From Candidatus Lindowbacteria bacterium RIFCSPLOWO2_12_FULL_62_27 (GTDB lineage Bacteria > Lindowbacteria > 2-12-FULL-62-27), in NCBI GenBank assembly GCA_001784175.1, contig MFPR01000002.1, forward strand, positions 1 through 64,000: a DNA stretch of 64,000 nucleotides. The letters are read 5' to 3'. Of the stretch, positions 8,740 to 61,800 are shown in pieces. Each line of letters opens with the position of its first letter. Within the stretch, counting starts at the first letter, position 1. The notes beneath the pieces were generated by a model. It saw only the letters and a program-made list of their open reading frames with translations, did no database searches and was not told the DNA's origin. The translations under genes were made by a program, and so were the position numbers.

Positions 8740-8779
8740 TTTGACTCCGACCGCGTTCAGTCATACCATTGGAGAATTT

Positions 8780-10288: not shown

Positions 10289-10821
10289 TCCGTCTGCCGG
10301 CGTTGATGTGGGTGTTGGCATGTCTCGTGGGAACTCCGGTGGATCTTTGGGCGGAAGACACGAAACCGGCGGCGCCGGCGGCGTCCAGCAAGACCATGTT
10401 TTATCGTCTCCTGGCCCAAAAACCGGCCGCAACGGTCGAGGACGCCATTCGGGCGCTGGCGCGATACAAGGGCGGTGCCCAGGAATTGAAGCCCTTGGCG
10501 GAGGAACTGTCATTTCTTAATTCGCAAGAGATTCGTTTCCCGAAAGACATCGTGCGCCGCAAGGATATGACGCTTACCATGGGCAGCGCCGCGCACATGC
10601 TGATGAAGGCCGTGGGGATCAAAGGCAAGAGCATCATGTACCAGATGCTTCCCGATCAGCAGCGGTACGCGATGCGGGAGGCGTCCGAACAGGGCATCAT
10701 CCCGCCGGCCGCGTTCGTAGGCCAGACCCTCAGCGGCAACGACCTCCTGGGAATGCTCGTCCGGGTCAACGAAATCGTCGAAGCGGAGAGGAAGGCAGCG
10801 GAAAAAAAGGATACAGAGTAA
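10270..10821 (+). CDS. Small exported protein of unknown function
   Basis: 183 residues from GTG 10270, with GGAGG at 10260-10264 supporting this start although it lies inside the previous gene. A signal peptide is evident (basic VARYLIR, hydrophobic core, cleavage near LWA-ED). The mature part begins with a Pro/Ala linker and is then mostly helical with several Lys/Arg-rich stretches and a conserved-looking centre (DIVRRKDMTLTMGSAAHMLMKA). No family recognised. The overlap with the barrel gene suggests a periplasmic partner of that protein. Confidence 0.7.
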   Translation: MVARYLIRLPALMWVLACLVGTPVDLWAEDTKPAAPAASSKTMFYRLLAQKPAATVEDAIRALARYKGGAQELKPLAEELSFLNSQEIRFPKDIVRRKDMTLTMGSAAHMLMKAVGIKGKSIMYQMLPDQQRYAMREASEQGIIPPAAFVGQTLSGNDLLGMLVRVNEIVEAERKAAEKKDTE

Positions 10822-38818: not shown

Positions 38819-39523
38819 TCACGCAAAGCGCCAGAAGATGAGCGTCCCCAGGGCGCGGAGTCCGTCCCAGGCGGTGATTTTTTTACCCTCGGCGCGCGAT
38901 CTCGGCGTGTAGCGGATCGGGACCTCGAGGATGGGAACGCGGCGCCGGAGGAGTTTGGCGGTGATTTCGGGTTCGATGTTGAATCGATCCGAGCGCAGGT
39001 CGAGGTCCAACAGGATCGCGCGTTTCATCATCTTGCAGCCGGTTTCCATGTCGGAGATGCGGCGGCCGTAGAGGAGAAAGACGACGGCGTTGAGGAAGAG
39101 GTTGCCCCAGTAATACAGGACGGAATATCGCGGGTTGTCCGTGAGGTTCCGGCTGCCGAAGACGACTCCGGCCCGCCCCTGGCGGATCGGTTCCATGAGC
39201 GCGGGCAGGTCGGCCGGATCGTATTCGAGGTCAGCGTCCTGGATGACGACGACGTCTCCGGTGGCGGCGCCGAGCGCGGTGCGGACGGCGGCGGCTTTGC
39301 CGAGGTTGCGGTCGTGGCGGAAGATTCGGATGTCGAACCGCGGCGCGAGGCCGTGGGTTTCCGCGTTCTGAAGGATGCTGAAGCTGTCGTCGGATGACGC
39401 GTCGTCGACGAAGATCAGCTGCACCTCCGTGTCCGGCATGGTGAGGCGGTCCAGCCGGCGCAGAAGTTCCGGGAGGAGGCGGGATTCGTTGAAGACGGGG
39501 ATGAGGATGGAGAGGCGGATCAT
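38819..39523 (-). CDS. Family 2 glycosyltransferase
   Basis: 234 residues from ATG 39523, which overlaps the comEC stop (ATGA); the upstream 110 codons in this frame are shadow sequence. Family 2 motifs: LSILIPVFNES, VDDASSDDS, the DxD site IQDADLEYDP, and ETGCKMMKR as in DPM1-like enzymes. There is no transmembrane extension, in contrast to the paralogous GT2 at 7607. Substrate unknown; probably transfers a sugar to a lipid-phosphate carrier or nascent polysaccharide. Confidence 0.9.
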   Translation of the reverse strand: MIRLSILIPVFNESRLLPELLRRLDRLTMPDTEVQLIFVDDASSDDSFSILQNAETHGLAPRFDIRIFRHDRNLGKAAAVRTALGAATGDVVVIQDADLEYDPADLPALMEPIRQGRAGVVFGSRNLTDNPRYSVLYYWGNLFLNAVVFLLYGRRISDMETGCKMMKRAILLDLDLRSDRFNIEPEITAKLLRRRVPILEVPIRYTPRSRAEGKKITAWDGLRALGTLIFWRFA

Positions 39524-41610
39524 TCTTCGAGGGATTCCTGGAGCGCAGTGGTGTGGGTCCAGCGGGTATTGTCCAAGCGGCAGATGCGGAGGCGGCCGTC
39601 GATGGAGGCGGCGAGCGGGTCGGGGATGCCGGCCTGTTCGAGGTCCGCGAAGATTGGTTTGAGTTTTTCCGGCGAGATCGCGCCGGCCAGAAACACGTGG
39701 TCCGGGTGGAGGCCATCGGGTATTTTGAGTGTTTCGCCGGCCACCGGTTTGGCGGCAAGCCACGTTTGTGTTTTCGCCCGGGTCTTTTTGAACTGTATTT
39801 TGTCGGGCTTTCCGAATTCGGAATAGACCACACGGAGTCCCTGGCCTGTCCATACGAACCCGCCGTCCGGCGGGACGTGGAGTCCATCGACGGGCGTTTT
39901 CTGATCGACGAGTTTGAATTCATTTTTCAGAATCTCTGTCGCCTGCGGTTGAGCCTCGATGTTATCTATCCGCGTCACTCCCGCTCTCAGCCATTCCTGG
40001 ACCATCGGTTTCAGCGCCGAGCCCGTCTCACCGGGTGGCAGGTCCACCCGGGCAAAGAGTATCCGGTTGCCCTTTCTCAGGTCGACGTACGGCACGCGGT
40101 CGCCGCCCATTTCGATGCAGAACGGCGCGACGCTGTTTCGGGCGAGCGGGAAGAGGGCCAGGCAGAGGAGGAAGCCGGCGCTGCCGATGGCCCAGTTTCG
40201 GGGCGTGCCGGGGATGAGGAACAGGAAAAAGGTCCAGGACGCCAGAAACGGAATCAAAAACCAGAGCGGCAGATGGCCGAAATTCGATGAGATGGACAGA
40301 AGTTCCGGCAGGTCGCCGAGGAAGTAGAGAGTCGCCTCGAGGCAGACATCGCCGGCCGAGAAGACCCAGCCGGCCAGGGCGGGCGAGACCCCCGCGAGCG
40401 CGGCGCCGACGGCTGCGAGGCCGATCAGGAGGGTGAAGAGGGGCAGGAAGACGAGGTTGGACAGCACGGAGAGGAGGGACCACCTGAAAAAGAGGTGCGC
40501 GGTGAGCGGCGCGGTGAAGACCTGGATCATGAGAAGGGGCAGTACGGTTTTTGTCCATGCGGGCGCTTCGACGAACTGATTGCGAGTTCTGTCGAAGAGG
40601 GGTCTCAGCGCGATTGCGCTGAGCGAGATGCCGAGGATGGCGAGGTAGGAGAGCTGGAATCCCAGGTGCCCGAGGTGTTCGGGAAAGGCGATGAATTCGA
40701 TCACAAAGGATGCGGCGGTGATGTGAAGGAGCCGGACGGGCCGGTTGAGGAGTGTGGCGAGGAGCGTGAGGGTCGTGGCGATCGCCGCGCGAACGACGGA
40801 GGGCTGGAGGCCGACGATCACGCAGAATCCGACGACCGCCGCGCAGGTGAGGGCCGCCGCGGCGGTGCGATCCAGAAGGGGCGCGAGGAGGAAAAAGAGC
40901 ACGGCCGCGAGGAGCGTGGTGTGCATGCCCGACACCGCGATGATGTGCGTGAGCCCGTGATCCTGAAGGATGCGGAGCGTTCGCGGATCGAGGTCCGAGC
41001 GTTTGCCGAAGAGTTCAGCGCGAGCGAATGCCAGGAATGCGGGCGGCGGCCGGGCCTCGATGAGTGCCCGGTCGATCCGGTCGCGAACGGCCAGACACAC
41101 CCGGCGGATTTGCTCGATGGGTCCGGGCGCCACGACCGGCCCAACCAGGGGTTCCCAGTGAGCGGGCACGAGCCGGCGGCCGTGCGCGACGCCATCGACG
41201 AGGATGGTCTGTCCGAGGGCCGGCGCCGATTCGAGGTTGCGCAGGGATAGGATCATGTGCAATCCCGTGTGGGGCGGCCGGGCCAGCTCGACCGACGCAT
41301 GGCGTTCGAGATAGGGATCGGACAGAACGCGCACGGCGAGGCCGTCCACCGGCCCATAGAGCTGCGCGAACCGGCGCTCCTCCAACTCCAGGGACTGCCG
41401 GGTGAGCCACAGGCCGAGGATCGCGGCGGCCATGAGGATGAACAACCACGCGGCGTGTTGGAACAATTTTTGAACATGCGCGCCGACCGCCAGCACGGCA
41501 AAGACGGCGAACAGAACAGCGACGGAATCGCCGGGAACATGGAGAAAGAATCCGAGCGATCCGCCGATCAGGAGGGCGACGGCGAGTTTGGGGAGAAAGG
41601 CTTTTGACAT
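39520..41610 (-). CDS. comEC: DNA internalisation protein ComEC/Rec2
   Basis: 696 residues. An N-terminal soluble OB-like region between hydrophobic helices is followed by the competence domain with many transmembrane helices (about 190-510: GLTHIIAVSGMHTTLLAAVLF is the family hallmark). The C-terminal ~170 residues occupy the position of the metallo-beta-lactamase domain but lack the HxHxDH metal ligands; where they are expected the sequence reads RIDNIEAQPQATEIL. So the channel part looks functional but the nuclease-like domain is inactive or reduced. Together with comEA immediately upstream this suggests natural DNA uptake. Confidence 0.93.
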   Translation of the reverse strand: MSKAFLPKLAVALLIGGSLGFFLHVPGDSVAVLFAVFAVLAVGAHVQKLFQHAAWLFILMAAAILGLWLTRQSLELEERRFAQLYGPVDGLAVRVLSDPYLERHASVELARPPHTGLHMILSLRNLESAPALGQTILVDGVAHGRRLVPAHWEPLVGPVVAPGPIEQIRRVCLAVRDRIDRALIEARPPPAFLAFARAELFGKRSDLDPRTLRILQDHGLTHIIAVSGMHTTLLAAVLFFLLAPLLDRTAAAALTCAAVVGFCVIVGLQPSVVRAAIATTLTLLATLLNRPVRLLHITAASFVIEFIAFPEHLGHLGFQLSYLAILGISLSAIALRPLFDRTRNQFVEAPAWTKTVLPLLMIQVFTAPLTAHLFFRWSLLSVLSNLVFLPLFTLLIGLAAVGAALAGVSPALAGWVFSAGDVCLEATLYFLGDLPELLSISSNFGHLPLWFLIPFLASWTFFLFLIPGTPRNWAIGSAGFLLCLALFPLARNSVAPFCIEMGGDRVPYVDLRKGNRILFARVDLPPGETGSALKPMVQEWLRAGVTRIDNIEAQPQATEILKNEFKLVDQKTPVDGLHVPPDGGFVWTGQGLRVVYSEFGKPDKIQFKKTRAKTQTWLAAKPVAGETLKIPDGLHPDHVFLAGAISPEKLKPIFADLEQAGIPDPLAASIDGRLRICRLDNTRWTHTTALQESLEE

Positions 41611-41611
41611 A

Positions 41612-42226
41612 TCAATCGACCGTGATCAGGGCTTCGAGCCACTTGTAGGTTTTCCGGCCGACGCCCCGGACGCGCATGAGGTCCTCTTTTTTTCGAAACG
41701 GGCCGCGCGTGTCCCGGTCGGCGACGATTCGGCGCGCAGTTTCCGGGCCGATGCGCGGGAGGGTTTGAAGGGCTTCAGCGGATGCGCGATTGATGTTGAT
41801 TTTCGGGGGTCCCGCCTCCCCGGCGAGCGCCCCGCCCGGCGCGGCCGTGGACCGGATGCGGACGCGCTGGAGCGCGTCGTCGGACAGGGCGACGCGCCCG
41901 GCGACCATGCGGAGGTTGGCGGGCACATGGACTTCGTCGCCGTCCTGGAGCGCGCGCGTGTAATCGGCATGATCGATGTAGGCGTTGGGTCTGGGCCGGA
42001 CGATTTCAAAGAGACCCTTGAGGCGTGTTCCCTCGATCAATTTGATCGGGCCGGCGCGTTCGACCTCGCCCGTCACGATCACGGCGATGGTGCGAATGTT
42101 CCCGGCGGACTCCGGGCCGGCGGACCGGGGCTGCCGTTGTTCCTGCGCCGTCGTGTAGACAGCGGGCAGGGCGGGCGGATGTGCGCGCAGGACCGCGAGG
42201 GCGGCGCCGGCCATGAGGATGGCCAT
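41612..42226 (-). CDS. comEA: ComEA-like DNA-binding competence protein
   Basis: 204 residues. An N-terminal membrane anchor (residues 3-15) is followed by an SLBB-like region (about 45-105: AVIVTGEVERAGPIKLIEGTRL) and two helix-hairpin-helix motifs (KININRASAEALQTLPRIGPETARRI and DLMRVRGVGRKT). This is the full SLBB-HhH form found in Bacillus, less usual than the short single-domain form of many Gram-negatives. It binds incoming double-stranded DNA outside the inner membrane and passes it to ComEC. One base separates the two genes. Confidence 0.92.
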   Translation of the reverse strand: MAILMAGAALAVLRAHPPALPAVYTTAQEQRQPRSAGPESAGNIRTIAVIVTGEVERAGPIKLIEGTRLKGLFEIVRPRPNAYIDHADYTRALQDGDEVHVPANLRMVAGRVALSDDALQRVRIRSTAAPGGALAGEAGPPKININRASAEALQTLPRIGPETARRIVADRDTRGPFRKKEDLMRVRGVGRKTYKWLEALITVD

Positions 42227-42270: not shown

Positions 42271-43767
42271 TCAGAGAAAGAATACTTTGTAGGCGAGTTC
42301 AGTACCGATGCTGTAAATTTCTTCCGGAGATTTCTCGACGGTGGTCTGGCGGGTTTTCCCCGTTTTGGTGTCGAAGACGTATGTATCGATGCGGAGCCGG
42401 CCGTCGGGGAGATCGGAGAAGAACCCGAAGATGACCTTGTTGGCGCCGAGGATTTTGGCCCACTGGCCGCCGGAATTGGTGGTGACCTGCTGGTTGCCTA
42501 TTTTCTGCGCGACCTCCACGCGGTCGATCATGTCCCATCGCTGCAAGAGTTCGTTGTAGACCATGTCGGCGATCCCGAGTTCGAGCCACGCAAAATCGCT
42601 TCGGCCGGTGAGGTTGACGAAGTTGGCGACGGCGACGCGGCTGGAGGTGGGGACGTCGGATATCGACAGTTTCTGTTCATACGACATCGCCTCCATATCG
42701 GTGGGCGCCGCCGCGGACGGGGAAAAAAACTGGGAGTACGCCGGCGCTGTGGACTTGGGGCCGCCGAGTTCGAAGGCGAGGGACGCGAAGCTGGTGTTGC
42801 CGCCGCCGTCGGGTTCGTGGCGGAGCGCGTAGTCGAATTTGAGGGGCCCGAACCGGAGCCCGGCGCCGGTGGAGAAGGTGAGGGTCGACGCGGAGAAATC
42901 GCGTTTGATTCCGCTGCGGAGCGCGAGCCCGTAGAGGGTGGGCGCGCGGCGCGTCTGGAGATACTTGAAATACCGGTCGCGCGGCGAAGTCCCCGTGGCG
43001 CCCTCGTCGAGCCGGTAGGATTTCCAGACCCACATTTCGCCGCCCAGGATGCCGTGCTGGAGCGATTCCTCATCGTCGCCGGCGACATCGACCAGGAGGC
43101 GTCCCTTGTCGGAGAATTCGTACTGGAGACCGAGCCTGTAAATGAGGAGGAGGTCTTCGGTGAGGCCGGTTTTCCAGTCGACGTTTCCCGTGATGTTTTT
43201 GAGGGACAGGCCGATCGCGAGTTTCTGGGTGAGGCGGAACAGCGCGCCGACATCGACGCCGTAGCCGGACCCCTGGCCGCCGCCCGCCGTCAGGTTCGAG
43301 GTGATGTCATAGTATTTGAGGTTGGCGCCGAGGTAGAAGTTCCGGATCAGGAAGGACCGGGCCACGCTGTAGACCATGGTGGTTTCCTTGTATTCGAGCC
43401 GTCCGAGTTCCGCGAAGAGTCCGGCGGAGGAGAAATCGAAGGATATCTGATTGGTCGCGTAGGACAGCCCGTGGACGGTTTTGCCCCACGGCACCACAAA
43501 TCCGAGGTTGGTCTGGGTGATGTAGTCGAGGCCGTAGAGGTCCGTATAGAGGGAGGTGAACTGAAACCGGTCGACCGCGCCGATGCCGGCGGGGTTCCAG
43601 AAGATGGATGCGATGTCGCCGTAGGCGGCGCCGTAGGCTTCGCCCATGCTCTGGGGGGTGACGGAGAAATACTCGTCGTATCCGCCGAGGGCGTGGGCGG
43701 GGCCGGGGAGAATACAGAAGACAGAATACAGAAGACAGAAGAGAAACAGGCATCGTTGGTAATTCAT
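42271..43767 (-). CDS. PorV-like outer-membrane protein fused to a CsgG/FlgO-like domain
   Basis: 498 residues from ATG 43767 (weak ribosome site). A signal peptide (CLFLFCLLYSVFCILPGPAHA) is partly encoded by a simple repeat. Residues ~25-345 form an outer-membrane barrel of the PorV/UPF0164 type, with the hallmark ...GAAYGDIASIFWNPAG near its N-terminus. Residues ~370-498 resemble CsgG/FlgO/TolB-N-type domains (RVAVANFVNLTGRSDFAWLELGIADMVYNEL, later GANKVIFG). PorV proteins in Bacteroidota bind and release the C-terminal sorting domain of type IX secretion cargo. Here the gene directly follows one whose product ends in such a domain, so they probably work together. The added soluble domain is not part of ordinary PorV. 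Confidence 0.8.
   Translation of the reverse strand: MNYQRCLFLFCLLYSVFCILPGPAHALGGYDEYFSVTPQSMGEAYGAAYGDIASIFWNPAGIGAVDRFQFTSLYTDLYGLDYITQTNLGFVVPWGKTVHGLSYATNQISFDFSSAGLFAELGRLEYKETTMVYSVARSFLIRNFYLGANLKYYDITSNLTAGGGQGSGYGVDVGALFRLTQKLAIGLSLKNITGNVDWKTGLTEDLLLIYRLGLQYEFSDKGRLLVDVAGDDEESLQHGILGGEMWVWKSYRLDEGATGTSPRDRYFKYLQTRRAPTLYGLALRSGIKRDFSASTLTFSTGAGLRFGPLKFDYALRHEPDGGGNTSFASLAFELGGPKSTAPAYSQFFSPSAAAPTDMEAMSYEQKLSISDVPTSSRVAVANFVNLTGRSDFAWLELGIADMVYNELLQRWDMIDRVEVAQKIGNQQVTTNSGGQWAKILGANKVIFGFFSDLPDGRLRIDTYVFDTKTGKTRQTTVEKSPEEIYSIGTELAYKVFFL
43709..43750. repeat. Simple repeat of GAAGACA/GAATACA units, coding strand for a signal peptide
   Basis: The same repeat as at 6291-6336. Read on the minus strand (TTCTGTCTTCTGTATTC type) it encodes the hydrophobic Leu/Phe/Cys core of the PorV-like protein's signal peptide. 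Confidence 0.7.
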
Positions 43768-43823
43768 GCGCAGGAATATTGTGTACGGGATAAACAGTGA
43801 AGTCAAGGCGGCCGGAGCGTGGT

Positions 43824-46800
43824 TCATTTTACTACAGCAATCGGCACGATCTGGACCTTGCCGTTGATTTCGAGGCGCATGAGGTAGACGCCGTTTTTGA
43901 CGACCGTGCCGTCGTCCTTGCGGCCGGTCCAGGTGAGCGCGTCGCCCTGCTGCTGGATGTTGGCCATGGTCTGTCCGCCGACGCCGAAGACGCGGAGTTT
44001 GGCGTCCGCGACGCCGGGCGGGACCTTGAATTGAACCGCATCGTCCGCGCAGTGGATGGGGTTGAAGGTCGGCTCGTTGCCGGCGTCCGGGCAGGTGAGC
44101 CGGACGGTGGCACCCTCCTTTTCGACGGTGAGGACGTTGGAATACTGCGTGAAGTTGCCTTTGGCGTCGACGGCGATGACGACGAAGGTGTCGCGGTTGG
44201 TGGCCGGTTCGAGGGGTATGCGCGAGAAGATGGCGACCTCGCCGGACACGGGGACCGACGTGAAGACCTTCCCGTTCCGGAGAATCTGCGCGCTGACGAT
44301 GGCGAGGTCGCCTCCGGTCGTGGCCCGGGCGGTGATATCGATGAACGGCGAGAGCGTCTTGAATGCGCCGAGGTTGGGATCGGGGCTGACGATGGTGATG
44401 GTGGCGTTGTTCTGGAGGTCGACCTTGAAGGTGCGTGTATTGAGGCTGCTGGGCAGTTCGATGTTGTTCGAATCGTCCCTGGCGATCGCGATGACCTTGA
44501 CGGTGACCTCGCCGGCGGGCACGCCGAGCGTGACGGAGGTTCGCCACGAGTATTTGTCGGTGAAGTCGGACGTGCCGGGTTTGATGGTGACGATGTTGGA
44601 GAACCCGCCGTTGATCTGGAGCGGTATATCGAGTCCGAGGTCGGCGCGGAAGAAGCTGAGGGACACGGACGCCACCGAATCGGACCTGGGATTGCCGATG
44701 TCGAAGGACGACCCCGCGATCGTCACGCTGTCGAACTTGCCGAACACGGTCCCCTGGAGCGGCTGCTGGATGGCGGTGATGGGCGGGGACAGGTCGAGAA
44801 TGAGCGCCGGCGCGGTGACGTTGACCTTGACGGAGGCCTGGGCGGACTTGTTGGAGAACGGATCGAACGCGAAGACGGTGATGGTGTAGTTGACGCTGGG
44901 CGCGACGGTTTCGCCCTTGTCATTGAACATGTTCCAGGTCATCTGATTGGTCTGCGCGGGCTGCGTGAGCGGCGGAATGGGCGTGAGGAGCCGGACGACG
45001 GTGTCGAAGGGATCGGTGACCTTGACGGTGACCTGCGCGTTTTTGGAGAGGACATAGGAGATGGTGGCCATCCCGAGGGAGGGGCTGCCGAGGATGATGG
45101 TTTCGGGGTTGACCCGGAGATTGGCGATGGTCAGCTCGGACTTGTCGACCGTGATCGATGAGAAATACTCGGCGAGGTTACCGGCGTTGTCGATGACGCG
45201 GATCCGGCCCTTGTAGACGCCGTCGGTGGTCCCGGGCGACGGCTGCCAAGTGACGGAGTAGTTGCCGTCGCCTTTAAAGGGCGGCGTGATGCCGAGCGTG
45301 GTGACGGCGTTCCCGGCCGCGTCCTCGACGGTAAAAGAGGCGTTCCCGACCTTGGTGAGGAGCTGGAACGTATTTTTGGCGGCGACATCATCGCGTTCGT
45401 CGGTGACGCGGAATACGGCGTCCTTGACGGACTTGAAGGGCAGCCCGACGGTGAAGACGGTGCCGCCGAGGGTGCCCTTGGGGATGGTGATGGCGTTGGA
45501 GTTGATGCCGTTGCCGAATTCATCGAATCCGGTGATGGTGACGGTAATGGCGTTGGCGACGACCTCCACCGGAACGATGATGAGGTCCGTCGGTCCCGTG
45601 AAGGCGAAGGGCCCCTGCCCGCTGACGAATCCCTGGCCGATAAAGACGTTTCCGCCGGAGGACCACTCGTAGAAGATCGTCCCCACATTCTGGGCCGCGC
45701 CCAGGTTGGAGGCCTTGAACGAGATGTTGGTCCGGTCGTTCAGCCCGATCGGGTTGATGGGATTGGGGATGACCGTGACGTTGGAGATGACGGGCGGCGT
45801 GAGGTCGATGCGGAAAGAGACATTCTGCGCGATGGCGTGGTTTCCGCCGCTGTCGACGGCGGTGATGACGAACGTGTAATCGCCTTCGGGGAAATTTTTT
45901 CCATAGAACGTAAACGAGTTCTGCCCGACGAGGTACTGGCGGGAATCGGTGTTGTCCGGCCCGTTGGTATTCGGCCCGAGCGGCGTCGTGTCAACGCCCA
46001 GGGGAATCGTCAGGAGCGACAGGTCCTTGGCCTTGATGGTGAAGAAGCATGTGGCGACCTCGTTGAGCGTGAAGGTGACCGTCGCCTGATCGGCGATGCC
46101 GTCATTGTTGGGGCTGAAGGGATTGGGCGTGATGCGGACGTTGGAAATCTGCGGCGGGATCATGTCCGCTTCGCCCGGATTATAAGTGACCGTGACCGTG
46201 TCGGACGGAATCCCCACAAATCCAAAGCGGTCGAGCGGTTCGGAGACGAACGTATACACGCCGGGCGTGTCCAGCGTGAAGAGCCTGCTCCAGGCCTTGG
46301 CGCCGGACGCCTCGTAGAAGGCGAACTGCGCGCCGGCGTCTGGGCCCTTGACGCCGACGCGGATGCGGACGATGTCATTGGGGGACGCGTCGGTGTCGGC
46401 GGCGACGCCGTTGATGAGGATCTGCGCGGCGTTGACCTGGGTACCGGTGGCCGGCGTGTTGATCCTGGAGCTGAGGGTGCTGCGGACGAATTTCTGCTTC
46501 TGCAGAGGCGCGATGAGGGTGGTGTCGATGGTGAGGACGTTGTTGACCGAGTCAAAAATCTTGATCCTGACCGTAATGGGCAAAGACTCGGCGGCGGCGT
46601 AGTGGAAGGCCCAGTAGTAGGTGTCGTTGGCGGTATTATCGGCGACATCCTCGTCGACGAGCGGGAAGATGAGCGTGCCGACCTTCGTCGCGACCACCTT
46701 GCTCGATCCGGGGAACCGGACCTCGTTGGCGCCGTTGTAGACGTAGGGATTGGTGTCGGCGACGTGCGCGAGCATGACCTTGTCGGCGCCGAGGGTGTAT

Positions 46801-49800
46801 CTCCACGCGTAGAGGCCATCGGGGTCGTCGACCCAGAAATCTCCGGCGACGCCGCCGAAGGCGCCCGGATAGTCATCGTTGATGTGATAGGAATCGGCGG
46901 CCTCCTCGTCCAGGAGCCCGTCGCGGTCGTTGTCGACGCCGTCCCCGGCCACCATGGCGGGCATGTCTGACATCCCGTCGGCCGCGATGCTGACGCGGAC
47001 GGCCGTGACGCGCGTGCGGCGGGTGACGTTGCCGTTGGGGATGGTGGCGTCGGCGACGCCGTGGATGCGGAGGCCGAAGGTGTCCTGCGTGATCTGGACG
47101 GTGGATGAGGGCTTGCTGGAGTCGATGGTGAAGACGACCGTATCGTAGGCGGTGTTGCCCATCCCGTCGGTGGCGCGCACGACGAAGGTCCAGACGCCGT
47201 CGGCGAGGTTGAGGGTCGAGAGCGCGAAGGAGAACATGGCCGCGCCGGTATCGGGCGAAGCGAAGAGCTGGAAGGATCCGGCGTCGGGCGCGACGGCATT
47301 GCCGGCCTTGACGGCGTACTCGAGTTTGGCGATGCGCCCGTTGTCGGACGTGACGCCGCGGATGATGGTGAGCGGGATGCTGGTGTCGGCGGTGACGGTC
47401 GAGTAGAGGCCGGCGAACTGCGTAACGGCGTTTTGTTGTGTCACAAGATTTTTGACCCCCGTGATGGACCCGCCGGTGTTGGCGGTGGCGAGGAGGAGGT
47501 TGGGGTTCTTGACGGATCCGGAGAGGTCGATGGCGTCGACGACGATATTGGACAGCTTGGCTTCGGAGGTGGCCTGCGGCATCGCCTCGGGCTTTTCGTC
47601 TTCGGCGCGTCCCAGCGACAGGAGGAGGATGCGCCGGTTGGTGGCGGTGGCGTTGGTCCGGATGAGGGACACGGCGTTGTTGATGGCCGATGGCAGGAAG
47701 GACTGAACGCCGGTGATGGTGACATTGTCGTTGATGGACCGCTTGAGCAGGTCCTTGTCGGCCGTGAACGTCTGGAGGACCTTGATCTGGGTCGGGTCGC
47801 TGAAGGACACGATGGCCGCCCGGACCTTGGCGGGCATGCCGTCGATGATGCCATTGGCCACGACCTTGGCGGCCTGCAGGAGCGAGATCGTGTCGGAGGA
47901 CAGGATGCCGAAGACGTTGGACATTCCCGTGGTCGCGTCAAAGACGATCACGACGTCGAGCGGGTTCGTCACGATGGCTTCGGGGAAGATGATATTGGAG
48001 AGCAGCGCGCCGTCGCCGGGGAAGGTGATGTCGACGGCGGGCGGCGTGAAGTCGCTGACGCTGGTGATGCGGGCGGACGCGGCCGACAGGCGCGCGCCGA
48101 GCGTCTGGGTGGCGTCCTCGAAGATGATGTCGTTGGGTTCCAGCCTGACCACGAACGCGTCGTCCCGGCCGATGGTGGAAGAGGTGCGGATGAGGACGAA
48201 GAAGTCGTTCCCGGCGAGCGGCCCGAGGTCGGTGTCGGGAATGGCCGAGTCGGCGGCGCCGGCGGCCCGAACCTGGAGGGTGGTGCGGTAAGCGCCGCCG
48301 AATCCGGTCCAGGTGATCGGCGCGGTGACGGGCAGGATGCTGTCGGCCGCGTCGTAGAGGCCGGTTTCGGCGCCGTTGTCCACAGCGATCGCGATGCCGG
48401 ACTCGGCGTGGAGATCGGACGGCGAAAACCCGCCGAGGTCGTCAATCCGCACCGTGACCTGTTTGAGGTAGGGACCTGTCGTGTCGTCCCGGACGTTCAG
48501 GCCGAAGACCGAGACGTACCCGGATGCGCTCGGGACGGCGGTGTCGGACGGAATGACCGACGCCAGTTTCGCCGAGATTTCGAACAGGACCGTGTCCGTA
48601 TAGACGGCGGCCTGCGGGAAGACGCCGTTATTGAGCACGATGCCTCCGGCCGGAATGTAGGCGCGGAAGGACTCCTTGTATTTTGCCGACGCGCTGGTGC
48701 GAATAGCGACGAAGAAGTCGGCGCCGGCGTCGCTGATGGTCGTGCCGGTCGGCAGAAGGGCCGGGTTGTTAAGCGAGATGGTGAAGGTTTCAGCCTTGTC
48801 CCAGGTCGGCAGTCCGCCGAGGTCGAGGCGCTGATCGAATGGATCGAGCTGTCCCTGGATGAGGCCGTTGTCCTGATAGATCGAGATGCCGCTCGCGTTC
48901 GTGTTCGAGAGCGCCGCCAAGTCCATGCTGTCGAATCCGCCGCTCTTGTCGAAGGCCACCTTCACGGACTGGAGCCGGCCGCCGCCCGAGGGATCGGAGA
49001 TGTCGAGCCCGAAGAGCGCGAGGGAATCGGAAGGCACGGGGACGCTGCCGGAGAGCATGGGCGTCGGGACGACGCTGATGCGCGGTTTGACGGTGACGGT
49101 CACGGCCGTGTCCGTGACGTTGCCGGCCGCGTCCTTGATCCGGAGATTTACGGTGAGGACGGACTTGCCCGATGTGTTCAGGTAATAGGCCCAGCGCGCG
49201 TGGCTGTCTGGCAGAGACCCCCGGGCGATGTCCTCGTCGACCAGAGGATAGAGGACGGCGCCGGTCGGCGTCTGAACGCCCCGGGTGCGGCCCTCGTTCA
49301 ACACCATGTTTCTGCCTGTGTACTTGACGAACGGCACGCTTTCCGCGACGTCCATCAGGAAAATCTCGTCGATGCCCGGCTCGAAAATCCCAGCAAGGCC
49401 GATCGGGTCGTCCGCCCAGAAGTCGCCGGCGGCGGCGGGCCCGAAGACGTTGAGCCAGTCGTCGTTCATATTGGGCGAATCGGGCGCCTCGTCGTCCATG
49501 ATGCCGTCGCTGTCGTTGTCCTTGCCGTCTCCGGACATGATGGTTTTCTGGAATGTGACGCCGCCGTCGAGGCTGACCTCGACGGACGAAACGCCGGAGA
49601 CGATGCCGCGCGGCGAGGAGGTCGCGTCGGCGAGTCCGGCGAGCCGCAGGGATCCGCTGTCGTCGTTGACCTGCAGGGTGGTGGTGGGCTTGGTGGAGTC
49701 GAGGGTGAAGAGGACGGTATCGGTGGATTCGTTGTTTTTCTCATCGCCCGCCGTGATTGCAAAGACGTAATCGCCGTCGGCAAGCCCGAAGGACGAAACG

Positions 49801-52800
49801 GGGATCGCGAAATTGGCGGTGGGACCCAGGTTGATGGGCAGGGAGAAGGGTCCGAAGTAATTCGCCGGGTTGGCCTTTTCGGCGTACCGGTACTGGATGC
49901 GGTTGACGGCGACGTTGTCCGAGGCCGACCCTTCGATCTTGGCGGTTCTCGACACCTCGGTGACCACGGTCGATGAAATTCTCTCCGCGATCGCGGCCAA
50001 AGCGTCCGGCAGGTTCAGCACGGTTTTCGTCTGGGAGGTGGTGATGGATCCGAGCAGACCGAAACTCGTGGTGGTGGTCACGGTCTTGCTCACGTACAGG
50101 TCAAAGGCCGACCCGCCGGTGGCGTTGGCCAGCGGCAGCAGTTCCTTCTCATTGTCCGGCGTGAGATCCAGTTTCAGGCTGAGTTCGCTGATGACGAAGA
50201 CCGACACACCGGCGTTGGCGATGGTGTCGGCCACGTCAGTGATTTTCAATTTGCTGAGGCCGTCGCCGTCCGACACGTCGTGGGTGGAGGCGTCGGTAAC
50301 GAGCACGAAGAACCTGCGGCTGCCGGACTGGAAGGGCAGCCCGAGGGCGGCGGCGAGGGCCTCGAGGGCGGATTCGGCGGGAATGACGCCGTCCGGCGTG
50401 GCCTTGGGATCGCTCTTGGCCGTCAGGGTCAGGACGTTGTTCTGGAACCGTGAGAGGTTGGAAGTGATCCCGAAATTGACGAGCGACGGCGAGTCGACCT
50501 TCTCGTCCTTGAACGTGATCAGTCCCAGATTGACGGACAGGCCGCTGTTGATGAGCGTCTGATAGAAGGCGGCGACGCTGTCGCGGAAGAGGTCGATGTG
50601 CGCCTGCATGCCGGTGGTGATGTCGAACACGAACACGACGTCCGCGATGGCCGCCGCGGCCGCCGTCAGGTTGTTCGTCATGATGGTCTTGGCGGTCGGG
50701 AACGTGACGGAGATCGCGGGCGGCAAAAGATCGACGGCCTTGGAGGCGACGATGGTTTTGCTCACGGCCGATTTCTGGCTGGCGCCGGAATCGAAGTGGA
50801 CCGCGCCCGCGTCCAGGGCGACCTTGAACTGGTCGCCGATGCTGAGGCTGTTGGAGGTGCGGACGACCACGAAGAAATCAGCGCCGGCGTAGGTGTCGTC
50901 GTCGTCGTGCGGCAGGGCGCGTCCGGCGGCGGGCAGGACGAGTTTGTATTCGTAGTTGCCGCTGGCGTTGATCTTGACGTTGGTCACGCTGGAGGCCAGA
51001 GAGACGAGGAGACTGTCTTTGGTCCGGTCGAAGACGCCCGTGTCGGTCCCGGCGGCGGTGCTGGTGCTGTCGAGCCAGAGTTCAACGGCGTAGAGGTCCT
51101 GGATGGAGAAGTTGGCGACGGGGATGAGGGTGACGATGATGGAATCGAGCCGCAGCCCTTTGCCGAGGTCGCTGATGTTGAGGCCGAAGATCGCGCGCGT
51201 ATCGTCGAGGGTCATTGAGTCGCCGGCGACCGTAGTGTCGATGATCGCGAGTTTGGGCAGGATGCGGATGCCCTTGAGCGCGTCGGTGGTGTCGGCTGCG
51301 GTGGCGGGCCCGTCGCTGAACTGGACGCCATTGGCCGGGATATTGAGGGTGAATGAATCGCCGGGCGTGGTGTTCGGGGAGGTGCGGATGACGACGAAGA
51401 AGTCGGCGCCGGCGTCGATGCCGGTATCGGACGACGGGACAGCTTGGGGCGTCGAGAGTGCGACCGTGATGGCGTGTCGGCCCTGCGTGGGCGTGTTGGG
51501 CATCCAAGCCGGCGCGCCGCCGACCGTCATGAGCTGGTCGAGCGCGTCGAGGGACCCGTCGACGACGCCGTTGTCCTTGTAGATGGACACGCCGTTTTTG
51601 ATGAGGACCGGCTGGAGGATCGAGTTCATGTTGGTGTCGGCCTCGATCGTGATCGCCTGGAATGTCTTGCTGGACGTGCCGATCATATTGAGCGCCCAGA
51701 GCGCGATGCCGGGGCTGGAATCGTCGATGCTGGCCGGCGAGAGGTCCGATATCTGGAGTTCGACGGAGAACGCGAACGCGTAGGTGAGCGTGGCGGTGTT
51801 TCCGGCGTTGTCCTTGAGGGCGACGGTCAGCGTGTAGGTATCGTTTTCGGAGATCTGGTCGATCGGGTCGGCCGCGAGATCAATATAGAAGGTATCGGCC
51901 GCGCCGAAGTTGTGGACGCTGCCGTTGGCTTTGACGACGCCGGCAGAGTTCTTGAGGGTGACGGTGCTGAGGACGGTGTCGCCTCCGCTGGCGACCACGC
52001 GATTGGCGTCGACCAGGAAATAGGAATCGGTGACCTGGACCACCACGCGGTCGATCGATTTGCCGTAGGGCGTGGTCGAGATCTCGCCGTCGACGCCGCC
52101 GCTCCGTATCTTGACGGACGCGACGCGCGGCGCGGTGTCGTCGAAGAGGATGGCCGTCCGGGTGTCCTCCGACTTGTTGCCGCTCAGGTCCTCGAGGTGG
52201 AACCACAGGGCCGCGCGGGCGTTCCGGCCGCCGGCCGCGAACGTGAGGGTCTGGCTGCCGCCGGTGATGGCCTGTCCGGGTGGGCTGAGCCGCTGATCCG
52301 CCGCGTCTCCATATATCCCGTTGTTGTTCATGTCCATCACGACATCGACCCAGGACACGCCCGGGTTGGTGTTGATGCCGGCGAGGGAGTCGGCGGTGTT
52401 GACGGTGAAGGTCAGGGCGCGGGTCGTGCTGCCGGAATCGGGGCTGGCGCTATTGACGAAGGGTCCTTTCGAGTCATACCGGAACTTGCGCGTGTAGGTG
52501 GCCTCGTTGCCGTTCTGATCGACGGCGATGAGATTGAAGACGTAATCCCCGTTCTCGGCGTCCGTATCCACCGGGCTCGCGAACCGGAGGGTGAAAGAGT
52601 CGGCGCTGGAGTAACGCGTGACGCCGACGTCGGACGCGAGCGTGGAATTCTGGACGCTGGACCGGTCGCGGCTGTTGTTGGCGTCGACCTTGCCGTTGTA
52701 CGGCGGCGTCGTCCCGAAAATGAAGGTGGAGGGCGACGTGTCGGTGAGAAACGTCGTGACGGACGTGACGGTGGTCCCGGTGGCGGACAGGGGCCCGAAG

Positions 52801-55800
52801 ACCTTGATCTCGGAGGCGGTGGCCCACGTGATCGCGGGGTCGCCGTTGAGGAAGACCGTCTGCGGTTGCGGCGGCGTCACGTCATAGACGAAGGTCCACG
52901 AATCGACGCGGGTATTGCCTGCGCTGTCCGTGAGGGTGACGCGCCCGATGTACTGTCCGTCCTGGGACCCGATACTGGAGAGCGGCGTGAGGAGCGTGAA
53001 TGTGATATTGCTGCCGCTGACGATTTTGGCGTTGAGGAGGCTGCGCTGAACGTCATTGGTATCGATCGCGTTCATGGTATCTCCAACGTCGTAGAAGAGT
53101 TCGAGTTTGGTGGCCTGCATATTGGCGCCGAAATCGTCCTGGAGGGCAAGCGAGATGGTGGTGACCTGCGTAGTGATCTTGGCGTTGCGTCCGGGCGTGG
53201 GATCGACGAGGGTGGGCGCTGTGCCATCGAAGAGGAACTGGCGCGAGTCGGACGGAGTTTCGACGTTGCCGGCGTTGTCGGTCGAGAAAACCTGGACCGT
53301 ATAGATTCCTGAACTGGTGACGACCTGCGTTCTGTCCAGGATATATTTGAAGTTCGACAGGCTGCCGGTAATATTCTGTAGTGTGGAACCCGCGAAGGGC
53401 GCACTGCTGCCGCTGGGCCGCGTAATGCGGATGGTGTTGGCCGCAACCGATCCGCCGCCGTATTCGGTGACCGTCCCGCTGACGGCGATGTCCGTATCGC
53501 TGAAAATCTTCATACTGACGCCATTGAGGATGATGGAATTCTGAGCGGGCACCGCGGCCTCGTTCTGAAACGCGACGTTGTCGATTTTGGTCTGCGGCGG
53601 CGTGAAATCCGTGAAAATATAGAGGAACTGGTCATTGGGTTTGAAGTCAATGGAAACGGTCGAGTCACCGGCGACAATCATGATGGTATCAATCTGGCTG
53701 AACTTGCTTGAAGTGATCTTGCGGCCCAGGAAGCCTGAGTCGGTGACCGTGAGTGTTTCCTGAGTCGTGCCGCCCAAAATCGAGATCTGGACCGTCCCGC
53801 TCAAGTTGTTGCTTGCGATGACATAGAGTTCGGTCGCCCGCGGGAGGGTCTTGGGCAGCGTGGTGGAAACCGAATCGGTCTGTGCGATCAAATTGGCGCC
53901 GTTGAACTTGAATGTGGCCGAATCGGGCGCGCTGCGGTTGCCGGCGGTGTCCTCGGCGATGCAGAAGACCTCGTTGGTGCCGGACACGGTGATGGCGATA
54001 CTGCCGGAATAGGCGCCGATGGAGGTGGCCGAAAATCCCGTCGTGGCCTGTGACCCCGCCACCACCGGAAACACGAGGCCGCTGGCCTCGCCAAACCCGG
54101 AAATGGAGTGTGCCGTTTGGATGGACGCGATGTCGGGCTCGGTGATGGAGGGCGCATCCGGTCCCTTGTTGTCGACGAGGACCTGCCCGGCCGCCGTCTT
54201 GATCTCCTTGGTGAGTTCGTCGACCGCCGTGATCTTCCAGTAATACGTCTGCTCGGCGTTGACCGTCAGGACTGACCCCGTGTCGCTGGTGCCGTTCCAA
54301 GAGAAGAACTTGGCAGCCGGGAAGACCGCCAGGGCGGTCGGCGCTGGGCGGTAGACAGGGATGGAGTCGGTCTGTTTGGCGAAGACCTCAAAGATCACGG
54401 TGGCGGTATTGGCCGCGCCGTCGACCTTGTAGGTGATGAAGGCTTGGTCGTTGCGCCCGTCCTGCCGCTGCGGGGAGATGGTCGGGAAGGACACGGAGAC
54501 GCCGGTCATGGAGAAGGGCGTGTTGTCGATGATGACCTCGCCGGCGACCTCGCGGGCCAGGCCGTTGTTGTCGACGGCCGTGATGACGTACCGGTAGGCG
54601 CCGTCGGACTGGTTCGATCCGTCCCACGCGATGATGGCGTTGGATGTGTCGCCGGTGAAGGGCCCGAAGGTCTTGACGGTGGCGCCCGTGTTCTTGGACA
54701 CCATGTCGACCCGGACTTTGTCGGCCCCGGCGGTCTTGAAGCTGAAGACCGTCACGTCGTCGTCGCCGGGCGTGGTGCCGGGGCTGAACGGGCTGGGCAG
54801 GGCGCTGGCGATGAGCGTGATGGCCGGCGGCGTCACGTCCTTGACGGCGGTCGCGCGGCCGGTCGACTGGTTCTTGGACCGGTCGGTCACGCGGATTTCG
54901 AAGGTATAGGTTCCTTCGATGACGATGTTGCCGTTCTTGTCGAGTCCGTTCCAGTGGATGAGGTTCTGGCCGGCGGTCTGCGCGATGCCGGTGTCATGGG
55001 GTTCGGTGTCGAGGAGGTTGCCGGCGGCGTCGAGGATGATGAGCAGGGCGGTGTCGACGTTTTCCGAGAGGACGTAGCGGACGTCAAGCCCGTCGTTTCC
55101 GAAGGGCGCCGGCGCCGCGATGATATCGCTGATGACCGGCGCGACGACGTCAGCGACGGCGGTGTCGAAATTGAATGAGACCGAGTCAGTGGTGGGGCCG
55201 GTGTTGCCGGCGTTGTCGACCGCGTAGGCGTCGATTTTCCAGAGGCCGGGCACGAACCGCGAGTCGCTGAAATTGAGCGTGTAGCTCCAGCTTGACGTCC
55301 CGGCCGCCAGGGAATCGTTGACCTTGGAGTAGACCGCGCCGTAGGGCGAGGTCGGCGCGAAGACGCGGACGAAGACGCGACCGACGGCGCTGGTGGTGTC
55401 GGCCGCGACGCCGGTGACGGCGATGGGGCTGGCGTTGAACTGCGCGTTGTTGACCGGGTTGACGATGATGGCCGACGGATTGTCGCGGTCGTAGACGAAG
55501 GTGACCGTGTCGTACAGGAAATTGCCGGCGCGGTCGACGGCCTGGATGATGAGGGTGTAGGTATCGACCTCGGCGGCGTTGTCGATGACGGTGGCGCCGG
55601 TGAGTTTCACGCCGATCGTGTCGGTGCGCGTATCGAAGAGGATGGTGCCGAGACTCTGGCCGGCCGAATTGCGCAGGATCACGAACGTCGATTCGACGGC
55701 GTTGGCCGAAAAGCCCGTGACGCCGGACGTATCGCCGTTGGGGCTGGTTGTGGTGTCGTCGAGGTCGACGCCGACGAAGACGATGCTGTCGCCGAAGACT

Positions 55801-58800
55801 TCCTTGCCGAAGAACGTGTCCTCATACTGGGTCGCGGCGATCCCGTGGGAGATCAAGTAATTTTTTACCGCCGGTTTCTTCGTGTCGTACAGGACGATCG
55901 CGGTGTCCTCGCGGAAATTTCCGGCGTTGTCGTACACGGTGGCGACGAGGGCGTAGTATCCGTCCTGCGTGCCGTCGGTCTTGCGGTTCAGGCCGAAGGT
56001 GCTGGTCGTGGGGTTGAGGTTGAACTGCGCGCCGATGTCGCCGGCGTCGATCCCGTCGCCCTCGTCGTCCCAATACCACCGGAAGGTGGGCAGGAGGGCG
56101 CCGGCGGTGGGAATCTGCGCGGGCGTATCGGACAGCTCGACGGTGACGGCTGCGAGGGAATTGACGAACTTGCCGGTGTCCGGCGTAATCTTGATGTTGG
56201 GCGCCGAATCGTCAAAGACGAACCGGCGGTCGATGGTGGTGTCGTTGCCGTTCTTGTCGCGGGCGAAAATCAGCAGTTCATAAAGGCCGGGCGGCGGGGT
56301 CGAATCGGCGGGAACGATGTAGAAGGAATCGCTGATCTTGGTGACCGTGAAATTGAGGGACTTGCCGGTCGTGAGGTTCGTGAGGCTGAGGACGGTCGTA
56401 TTGGTGGTATCGACGCCGCCGACATATCCGCTGGGGCTCGTGTCGGCGAGGAAGACGGTGATGGTTTCGACGGAGGTATTGAACGCGACGGACGCGTCGA
56501 GGGTCTTGGCCGGATCGTTGTTCCGGAACGTCTGCAGGGCGTAGGGGTCGGTCGTGTCGAGAATGAATATCCGCGTGTCGGACAATGTGTTCCGGGCCTT
56601 GTCGCGCACGTCGATCTGGATGAGGTACGTGTCATCTTTCGAGCCGTTGGCCGGCAGGGAGATCACGGGCGTGAAGATGAGGTCGGTTGAATCGGAGGTG
56701 ACCGTGCCGCCGACCACGAGGTCGTTGTTGTCGATGATCGCGTCGCGGTCGAGGTCCTCAAAGAGCTGAATCCGCGCGCCGCCCTGGACTTCGGTGAAGA
56801 GCGAGAAATCGACGCCGGAGAGGGAGTCGACCGGCCGGATTTTGATCTGCGACAGGCTCGACTTGCTCGCGAAGGTCGAGGGATCGACGACGCCGAGATT
56901 GGATTTCGCCACCATGCTGGGCGATGTCGTCGAGAGCGAGGGTTTGGACTGGTCGAAGATGACGACGAGGTCGTCGTCGTTGCCGAACGTGCCGGAGGCT
57001 TCGACGTTGCCGGCGTTGTCGACCGCGAGTCCCTGGATGCGGAAGGACCCCTCGCCGCCGTTGACGAAGGTGGAGATGGGGATGTTTCGGACGCCCCACG
57101 TGTCCTGGCCGTCGCTCAGGGGATTGCGGGCGGTGTCGGTCGTGATCGTGACCGAGGTCCACGTGCTGTCGGGCCGGAGGATCCGCCACTGGACCTGCTT
57201 GAGGTCGGACTTGCCGCCGACCTGCGGCACGCGGCCGAAGATGTCGATGGCGACGTCGGTGGCGTTGAAGGGACTGCTGTTGCCGCCGGTGGTTTTGGCC
57301 GTCGTGACGTCGGCGTCGGGCGCGACGGTGTCGACGCGGAAGAAGACGATCTGGTCGTTGGACCGCAGGTCCGCCTTGACCGGCGCGTCGCTGTCGCGGG
57401 TGGCCGCGACGATGACGCTGTCGAATGTCTTGAAGACCTGCGCGCCCGTCACGATCTGGCCGCTCTTGGTGCCGGTGTCGATCGTGAGGGTGTCGACGAG
57501 GAGCGCGCCGTTGGCGTCGCGTCCGAAGACGACCACGAGGGTGGCCGTGTCGACGTCGTCGAAGACGACGAGCACGGCCTGGCTCACGCGCGGGAGGGTC
57601 TTGACGTTGGAGTCGATCGAAACGAACCCGGCGGTGCCGTATCCGCCGACATTGACGAGGCTGAACCCGCCCTTGCCGGACACCAGGCTCTTGTTGCCGA
57701 CCGTGTCGGTGGAGGTGGCGGTAAAGGTGTTGTTGCCCTGCGGCACGAGTACGCCGGCGATGGAGTATTCGCCGGTCGCGGCGTTGGCCGTGGCGGTTCC
57801 GACGGAGGAATCGACGCCGTTCAGGAGGACGTGGATGATCCCGCCGGGCGCGGTGAATCCGGAGACGGTGACGGTGAGCGTGGAGAGGGCGTTATTGTCG
57901 GTGTTGACGATCTGCGGCGCGTCGGGCCGCAGGTTGTCGACGTTGAACTGGCCGTCGCCGGTGCGGATTTCCTTTGTTTTCTCGTCGACGGCCGTCAATT
58001 TCCAGAAGTATGGATTCTCGGCGTCCTGCGACACAAATGACCCGGAGGCCTTGCCGTCCCAACTGAAGAATTTGGTAGACGGAAAGACCGTAAGGGTGAC
58101 GGCGTCGGCCACGATGGGCGAGGTGTCGGTCCGTTTGGCGAAGACCTCAAAGCGGACGGTTGCCGTTTCGTCCGCGCCATCGATCTTGTAGGACACGATC
58201 GCGTTGTCCTTGAGGCCGTCCTGGTTCTGCGGGGAGAAGGTCGCGTTGGAGACGCTGAGGTCCGACAGCGTGAAGGGCGTATTGTCGATGCGGAGTTCCC
58301 CGACGACGCGGGCCGTGAGGCCGTGCCCGTCGATGGCGGTGATGATGTACTGATAGGTCCCGTCGGCCTGGAAGACGCCGGATGAGTTTTTGCCGTCCCA
58401 CACGATCTTGCCGGCGGTTGTGTCGCCGGTGACCGGACCGAAGGTCCGTACGGTGAGTCCGGTGGTCTTGGAGATGATGTCGACGCGGGAACTCTGGGCC
58501 AGGAGCGTCGAGTAGACGAACTCGGTCTGGTCCTGCTCGCCGGGCGTGGAGTTGGGCGAGAAGGGCGTGGGCGTGGCGGACTGGGCGAGTGTGACCTGCG
58601 GCGGCGTCACGTCCTTGATGCCGGTGGCCTTGCCGGTGGTCACATTGTTGGACAGGTCGTACACGCGGAGCGTGAAGAGGTAGGTGTCCTCGATGACGAT
58701 GCTGCCGTTTTTATCGAGTCCATTCCAGTGGATGAGGTTCTGTCCGGCCGTCTGGTTGACGAGGATCGTGTCCTCGCGGATGAAGGCGAAGGCGGAATTG

Positions 58801-61800
58801 GTCACGGTCAGGACGGCGGTCTCGACCGATTCGGACAACACATATTTCAGATCCGCGCCCGCGTCTCCGAACGGCGTCGGCTCGACCACGATGTCGGAGA
58901 CGGTCGGGCCGACCACGTCGGTCAGGCGGGGGTCATAGACCACGTAGAGGGTGTCGGACATGCTTCCGGTGTTGCCCGCGTTGTCGACCGCGTAGGCCTC
59001 GATGTTCCACACGCCGATGGTGTCGCTGAGCGCTTTGAAGTCGACGGTGCCGAGCCATGAGGCGGCGCCGATGGCGAGGGAGTCGGCGCCGTTGGCGTTG
59101 GTGGTGACGTTGACGTGCGCCGCCGTCGCGATCCCGCCGGTGTCGCGCGGGGCGAAGACGCGGAAGTAGACGCGCGCGACCGTTCCGGTCGTGTCGGTGG
59201 AACTGCCGCTAATGGCGATGGGTCCGGCGCGGAACTGGGTATTGGTGATGGGGCTGATGATGCGTGTGTAGGGTGTGTCGACGTCGAAGACGAAGGACAA
59301 GGTGTCCTCGGCGCGGTTGCCGGCGGCGTCGATGGCGACGTAGTGGAGGTCGTAGTCGCCGACCTCCGCGAGCCCGTCGATGACGCTGCCGCCGGTGAGG
59401 ACGCGGGCCATGGTGTCGACGCCGGTGTCGGCGACGAAGGTCCCGAGCTTGACGCCGGCCTTGCGGAAGATCAGCTCGACGAAGGTCGAGTCGGTGGTCT
59501 GCGTGCCGTAGCCGACGATGTCGGCGGCCCGGTTATAGTTTTTGACCGCAGCGGCGGAGGCGGTGTCGACGAGGTTGACGCCGACCATCACGATACTGTC
59601 GTTGAATCCGGCGCCGGACGTGAACGAATCATAGACACTCGCGGACTTGCCGTGCGTGATGATGAACGCCTCGACCGTGGGCTTGACGGTGTCGTACCGG
59701 ACGATCCGGGTGTCCTCGCGGAAGTTTCCGGCCTTGTCGAAGGCGCCGACGACGATGGCGTAGTCGCCGTCCTGGGACCCGTCGGCGAGCCGGCCGAAGT
59801 TGACGGTGCTGCTGTCGGCGTTGAGGGTGGCGGACGAGAGCACTTCGGCGGCGGTGAAGACGCCGTCGCCGTCGGCGTCGTAGTACCACCGGATCCGCGG
59901 CTCCTGGCCGGAAGCGGTCGACACGCCGGACACGGCGTCGGCGAGGACCACATTGACGGCCGAGAGGGAACTCACGCGCGCGCCGGTGTCGGGCGTGACT
60001 TTGATCGAGACCGAATCCTGATCGAACAGGAAATTGCGTCGGATGTCGACCAGGTTGCCGTTCTTGTCGCGCGCGCGGACGCTGATGAAATAGGCGCCGG
60101 AGGCGGGCGTCGAATCGACGAGTTCGACGAACAACTGCGAGCCGGCCCGAACGGTCGTTCGAGTCGCGATGGCCTGGTTGGTGGAGAGATTGAAGAACCC
60201 GCTGAAGTCGCTGTTGACCGTGTCGATCCCGCCCACGTATCCGCTGGCGCTCGTGTCGGCCAGCTCCACGCTGATCGTGTCGAGGAACGTCGAGATCACG
60301 GCGCTTTCGGCGATCACCTTTGCAGTTGCGGGCGGCTCGCTGCCGGGCGTGTCGCCGAGGTGCCACGCGACGGCGAAGGGCTTGGTGGAATCGAGGATGA
60401 AGCGGACCGTGTCGGCCAGTATGTTTTGCGCGTTGTCGCGGCTGTAGATCGGCACGAGGTACGTGTCGTCCCGCGTCCCGTCGCCGGGCAGGGGCAGGAA
60501 GAAGGTGAGGGTGACGGTGGAGTCGGCGTTGGCGACGGAGGGCGTGCCGCCGATCTGGATATCGCCGCCGTCAATGTTCCCGTTGCCGTTTTTGTCCTCC
60601 CATACCTGGATGGTGGTGATCCCGCCTGTCGTGGTGGTGAGCCGGGCGTCCATGCCGGACCCGCCGTCGGCCGGCTTGATCGAAACCGCCGCGAGGCCGG
60701 TGTCCTGGAGCGCGTTGTGGACCGGGCTGGATGAGCCGATGGTCGGCGGGGTCTGGTCGTAGATGAACTCGAGATCGTCCTGGTTTCCGCCGTCGTTGGC
60801 GACCTCCTGGTTGCCGGTGGCGTCGACGCCGACGGCCTGCACGCGGTATTTGCCCTCGCCGCCGCTGGTGAGGACGGTGGCGGCGAAGGTGGCGACGAAG
60901 GTGTCGTATCCGAGGCTGCCGTAATTGACGGTGATGGAATCGGCCTCGGTGAGCGCGGTCCAGGTGTTGGTGGGATTGCGGACGCGGATCTTGACCTTGG
61001 CGGCCTCCTTGGTCGGCGTGATCCGGCCGAGGACGCGGACGTTGCCGGCCGTCAGATTGATCGGCGCCTGCTGGCCGCTCGTCGCCTCGTAGACGGTCCG
61101 CACGTCAGCGTTCGGCGAGACGCTGTCGACCTTGAAGAAGACGATCTGGTCCTCGGCCCGCAGCTCCACGCTGTTGGCCGGGGTGCTGTCGGTCTGCCTG
61201 GCCACGGCGATGGTGTCGAAGCGGGTGAAGAGTTTGGACCCGGTGGCGATGGACCCGCTGGAGGCGTTGGTGTCGATGGTGAGGGTGTCGTAGTCGACCG
61301 CTCCGTTGACCAGCCCGCCGATGACGACGCGGAAGGAGGTGTCGATCGTGTTGGTATGGCGGAGGATGATGAGCGCCTTGGACGCGCGGGGCAAGCCCGT
61401 TTCGCCGCCGAGCGCCGTTATCGCCAGGCCGGTTTCGCTGACGCCGACGAGAGACACGCCGGAGAGGCCGGTCAGTTTGCTGATGTTGCCGACGGAATCG
61501 GCGGCCTGGGCGTAGACGATGTTGTTGCCTTCGCTGAGGGCGACGGTGGTGAAGGTGAAGAGCCCGGTGACGTCGTCGGCCTTGGCGGTGGTCGTGAGGA
61601 GCGTGCCGTTGACGTTGAGCTGGATGGTGTTTGAGACTTCGGCGACGCCGGTGACGGTCGAGACGAGCGCGGTCTTGAGCGCGGTATCGTCGGCGGTCGT
61701 CATCTTGGGCGCCGGCGGCCGGGTCTGGTCCACGGTGACTCTGGCGTCGGCCGTGACGACATCATTGAGGAGCGGGTCCATCGCCGAGAGTCTGATCTTG

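Follow-up and report, generated by a model that had tools for sequence, protein, structure and literature searches.

Type IX secretion has been stated to be restricted to Bacteroidota or to the FCB group (PMC12618676, PMC11285876). All type A tails (C-terminal domains, CTDs) use one PorV, which is described as a shuttle that is in excess or recycled (PMC12618676), and the tail of type A cargo is removed by PorU (PMC12618676, PMC10202324). Dedicated barrels are described only for type B tails, whose PorP/SprF barrels are encoded directly downstream, and PG1035 and SprB seem to be anchored via such barrels (PMC12618676, PMC9143113). In the attachment complex, the CTD of PorU stays on PorV and the CTD of PorZ on PorQ, both uncleaved, and it has been suggested that cognate PorV-like barrels shield the tail from cleavage (PMC10202324). 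PorV-family barrels are small, FadL-like proteins that act with SprA in solved type IX secretion system (T9SS) structures (PMC10994853). In the open-access literature we found no paper describing type IX secretion in Lindowbacteria, and none describing dedicated PorV paralogues. Giant open reading frames are known from Omnitrophota, where a protein of 39,678 aa has been reported; these resemble the gene described below in that their products are tens of thousands of residues long and their phylum is uncultured, and differ from it in that the sections of that report available to us mention neither a type IX tail nor a barrel partner (PMC10066038).

The window analysed here, the whole stretch of 64,000 nucleotides from the genome of an uncultured groundwater bacterium assigned by kinship to Candidatus Lindowbacteria, has points in common with each of the type IX arrangements. 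With type A cargo and PorV it shares an Ig-like CTD, a PorV-family barrel and a SprA translocon; however, in Bacteroidota a single PorV is described as serving every type A cargo, with cleavage by PorU, whereas this genome has roughly one PorV-family barrel per divergent tail, and PorU was not found in it. With type B cargo and PorP/SprF it shares the cargo-then-barrel gene order, a dedicated partner and the proposed anchoring of uncleaved cargo by a barrel (PMC12618676, PMC9143113), but the barrels here belong to the PorV family, the tails are type A or PorZ-like, and the type B model TIGR04131 is silent on the window tail. With PorZ-PorQ and PorU-PorV, in which an uncleaved CTD is bound to a PorV-family barrel (PMC10202324), it would share that mode of binding; those are two fixed parts of the machine, whereas this genome pairs many large cargos in this way without the protease. 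On balance we favour the reading that the pair is a unit of a type-IX-like system in which every cargo has a PorV-family receptor of its own and, probably, remains uncleaved and anchored on it.

The giant protein, its tail and the downstream barrel

The features of the locus are as follows.

43824..63998 (-): 3' part of the gene for a putative giant surface protein (the cargo), identified by a single stop and third-position GC
43827..44063 (-): predicted CTD (sorting/anchoring) of the giant protein, Ig-like, divergent type A or PorZ-like, identified by own-genome profile, AF2 and Foldseek
43768..43823 (-): gap of 56 bp between the giant stop and the barrel start, with one weak sigma-70-like match inside
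43690..43767 (-): predicted Sec signal peptide of the barrel protein, MNYQRCLFLFCLLYSVFCILPGPAHA, read by eye from the sequence
42646..43689 (-): outer-membrane beta-barrel of the PorV family, presumed to be dedicated to receiving and anchoring the giant's tail, identified by NF033709, paralogue profile and fold
42274..42645 (-): TolB N-terminal-like alpha/beta domain, C-terminal to the barrel and presumably periplasmic, identified by TolB profile and fold

The giant frame ends at a stop codon at 43824-43826 on the (-) strand, comprises at least 22,131 codons (about 2.3 MDa of protein) and extends past the window end, remaining stop-free for ~46 kb beyond it (contig to about 110,200), up to an N-gap near the contig end; the N-terminus of the protein is absent from the contig. 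As third-position GC is 0.85-0.91 along the whole frame, the frame is coding throughout. The first-pass annotation was right about the frame, its coordinates and its same-strand layout with the barrel gene, and the frame proved even longer than described, leaving the window. Pfam domains of the protein include Ig-like (Big_13), FlgD_ig and two VWA domains, a predicted set typical of a large adhesin.

The last ~80 residues contain the motifs FNP, LRVFGVGG, W.GRKDDG, NGVYLMRLE and VPIAVVK, in agreement with the type A-like C-terminal pattern that had been described. Against curated models, the tail scored 15.6 bits with TIGR04183 (cut-off 23), 15.1 bits with CHU_C and 20.0 bits with FlgD_ig (PF13860; cut-off 27), its best Pfam match; internal FlgD_ig domains of the giant protein, unlike the tail, do pass the PF13860 cut-off. 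TIGR04131 gave no match to the tail at E up to 10. With a profile built from the 28 tails found by TIGR04183 in the same genome, the tail matched at E 7.9e-8, the window protein's sole match below 1e-3; in the tree the tail has a very long branch. The AF2 model of the tail (pLDDT about 80 over model residues 61-110) had PorZ 5m11 as its best Foldseek match in the PDB (E 2.3e-4), with other T9SS CTDs next and FlgD lower, and in a fold comparison PorU, NucA-CTD, mirolase and PorZ scored Z 8.3-8.5. Streptococcal protease Ig domains match this fold as well as T9SS CTDs or better, so the Ig-like fold is not specific by itself. The C-terminus of PorZ was a better match than TIGR04183 for two of the three PorV-linked tails tested in this genome. 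The earlier assignment of the tail to type IX sorting domains therefore stands in part: a type-IX-like CTD, beyond a plain FlgD Ig domain, is supported by fold (PorZ first) and by the own-genome profile, and membership of TIGR04183 at its curated cut-off is not. A plain FlgD Ig domain was also considered as the identity of the tail and was rejected by its C-terminal position, its recurrence and its pairing with a barrel.

The barrel gene runs on the (-) strand from an ATG at 43767 to the last base of its stop at 42271; the 56 bp that had been noted between the giant's stop and this same-direction gene were confirmed from the coordinates. Its product matches NF033709 (PorV_fam) at E 1e-12 with 48.4 bits, under the cut-off of 90, and a profile of the genome's own PorV paralogues at E 2e-24, in agreement with the PorV type originally assigned. 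We read it as a divergent PorV-family protein that is clearly related to the paralogues passing the NF033709 cut-off. The barrel's AF2 model is of poor quality (mean pLDDT 52.8), with about 13 long strands at low confidence, and its fold matches are supportive only; in the PDB it matched chain F of 8gl6, a T9SS complex, best (E 1.5e-6), with a poor superposition. The domain fused to the barrel had been called CsgG/FlgO-like, an identity that was replaced by TolB-N: the domain matches the TolB profile at E 9e-4, and its model superposes on TolB/Pal 2hqs_B with Z 12.9 and 2.4 Å over 116 residues, a match that is again supportive, the AF2 model being poor. Five PorV paralogues bear other C-terminal extensions, which look helical and TPR-like when read by eye.

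Tail-barrel pairs in the genome and in other lineages

In the genome of the window (G000; 94% complete, 44 contigs), 28 proteins match TIGR04183 above its cut-off, the window tail not among them, and all 28 matches lie ≤12 residues from the C-terminus save that on C26, a partial match ending 49 residues from the end. The own-genome profile found 36 tails in the loci examined, all C-terminal, and no internal domains below 1e-3; since these loci had been selected around tails and barrels, this specificity is not genome-wide. There are 18 PorV-family barrels, 12 of which pass the NF033709 cut-off by themselves or together with adjacent pieces. Fifteen are encoded directly downstream of a tailed gene, one (C26) directly upstream and two are unpaired, so that 16 pairings were observed where about 0.2 would be expected by chance. 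The arrangement had been called unusual; in the sense of unique this is not borne out, as the same layout occurs at 16 of the 18 PorV-family genes here and in several other lineages. A further PorV-family fragment at C30:10418-11065 (L048) corresponds to a barrel's C-terminal half. Its end is almost the same as that of the barrel at C30:59064, and it is probably a decayed copy or pseudogene.

Pairing is associated with tail class: 15 of 17 divergent tails are paired with a PorV-family barrel versus 1 of 19 canonical type A tails (Fisher 5e-7), and 18 of the 20 unpaired tails are canonical type A. Across the genome, distances between barrels correlate with distances between their tails (Mantel r 0.76, p 1e-4).

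For six of the 19 canonical type A tails, the next gene encodes an alginate-export-like (PF13372-type) barrel in place of PorV (L059, L058/L037, L057, L063, L070 and L053), and at locus L045 the order is tail, PorV and then an alginate-export-like barrel. There may be a second kind of tail-barrel pairing in this genome, with the alginate-export-like barrel as partner. The window itself encodes such a barrel at 8741-10285 (+), followed by a small protein of unknown family at 10270-10818 (+); L045 also has an alginate-export-like barrel adjoining a similar small protein, the likeness of the C-termini being judged by eye.

The window genome belongs to a very small group: the comparison set consisted of 60 genomes taken as relatives, only two from the family of the window genome (JACQOF01, a groundwater MAG, and JAHFCY01, deposited as Candidatus Lindowbacteria) and the rest sharing only the domain. 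The window pair is kept at 73-74% identity in genome G002 and at about 28-30% identity on a MAG contig of a distant relative (L126), where the cargo and barrel genes overlap by 4 bp (ATGA). In the other genomes, including the two close relatives, 51 of 77 sampled PorV-family genes follow a tailed gene, and several of the remainder follow a C25 (PorU-like) protein whose tail match lies just beyond the 20-residue rule. The first-pass annotation had thought it possible that the module lies outside Bacteroidota, and the phylum of the window genome is indeed not Bacteroidota.

Within each of five genomes (that of the window and four others), distances between PorV proteins correlated with those between their tails (r 0.70-0.82). 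Whole-operon duplication can also give rise to correlated divergence. The correlation weakens away from the C-terminus in four of the five, in G020 from 0.82 to near zero, and shows no such fall in G055; the fall is greater than co-duplication of whole genes predicts.

Export machinery and the proposed role of the barrel

The genome encodes one SprA homologue, which scored 70 bits against the curated model TIGR04189, under the cut-off of 200, and aligned over its full length with a profile built on 12 clear SprA proteins of other genomes (E 8e-99; hhalign probability 100 over 1533 columns). A phmmer search of this protein against PDB sequences gave nothing, so its homology was rested on profiles. 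SprA, PorV and tails co-occur across the 60 genomes (p 1e-8 to 5e-15). Sov/sprA and porU had both been named as genes to look for; the former has this full-length homologue, and for the latter no PorU-type C25 peptidase (PF01364) was matched in the window genome or in G002. The same PF01364 search gave matches in 26 of the 60 genomes, most other SprA genomes being positive and G001 weak, and in several genomes the coordinates place C25 genes just upstream of PorV. Models of the PorL/PorM motor (GldL/GldM) had no match in the window genome, and GldM was silent in all 60, those with a clear SprA included. As the genome is 94% complete in 44 contigs, these absences are not final.

Under the reading that we favour, the giant protein would reach the periplasm by Sec and cross the outer membrane via the single SprA homologue, and the barrel encoded downstream would take up its C-terminal Ig-like domain, as the pairing and the correlated divergence suggest. 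The tail would probably be left uncut, because no PorU-type sortase was found, and the protein would remain attached to the cell surface through the barrel next to it, much as PorQ retains PorZ and PorP/SprF retain type B cargo, with the TolB-N-like domain facing the periplasm and tying the anchor to the envelope. The around 20 tails of this genome that have no PorV neighbour count against this reading, as do the scores of the window tail and barrel under the curated cut-offs, the very long branch of the tail, the poor barrel model, whole-operon duplication as another possible source of the correlated divergence, and the lack of GldL and GldM matches, although the GldM model matched in none of the genomes searched. 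The wider proposition, on which we are evenly balanced, is that type IX secretion exists outside Bacteroidota in a form that works without a sortase. Every large cargo would have a particular CTD variant and a PorV-family barrel to itself, which would handle it and afterwards anchor it permanently; such barrels would often bear a periplasmic extension (TolB-N-like here; helical and TPR-looking in the five paralogues).

It is less likely, though still worth weighing, that the barrel is a dedicated shuttle only, which draws the tail from SprA and passes the cargo on, like the PorV of Bacteroidota; the cargo would then be cleaved by another protease or released. The published role of PorV as an excess or recycled shuttle for type A cargo (PMC12618676) and the canonical type A tails of this same genome fit such a role; however, the C25 sortase was not found in the window genome, the paired tails resemble the uncleaved CTD of PorZ, and one barrel gene per cargo gene suits a stoichiometric partner better than a recycled one. 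We regard it as improbable that the barrel is itself the export pore of the adjoining giant protein, as in two-partner secretion, with SprA uninvolved. The gene order does resemble a cargo-pore pair, and G020 and G029 have paired tails and barrels with no SprA match, but the completeness of these two genomes is 92-93%, and a very divergent SprA may have escaped detection in them; SprA co-occurs strongly with PorV-family barrels in the 60 genomes, and the small, FadL-like barrels of this family work with SprA in the solved structures (PMC10994853).

UPF0164 barrels exist in bacteria that lack type IX secretion, the tail matches FlgD_ig best among the Pfam models and the window encodes a flagellin too, but an ordinary adhesin with a FlgD-like Ig end, lying by chance beside an unrelated FadL/UPF0164-type barrel, is very improbable and is contradicted by recurrence: the pairing is found at 16 of 18 barrels, is kept in other genera and lineages and shows correlated divergence, and the tail profile gives no match below 1e-3 to the giant protein's internal FlgD_ig domains.

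If the one-barrel-per-cargo pairing is real, it would extend the type IX system to another phylum, provide about 16 natural tail-barrel pairs in one genome from which recognition rules could be drawn, allow a direct test of the published idea that cognate PorV-like barrels protect the tail from cleavage (PMC10202324), and explain the surface retention of a protein of >2 MDa.

Neighbouring genes and a repeat

The flagellin gene of the window (Flagellin_N and Flagellin_C) lies at 29201-30061 (-); the organism is therefore probably flagellated and may have a true FlgD. On the 3' side of the barrel gene, at 39520-42226 (-), are a helix-hairpin-helix (ComEA-like) gene and a ComEC-like competence gene. 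Many predicted genes of this genome (at L034, L045, L047 and other loci) begin with EILDFRFWILD, suggesting that an interspersed DNA repeat lies close to the starts of genes.
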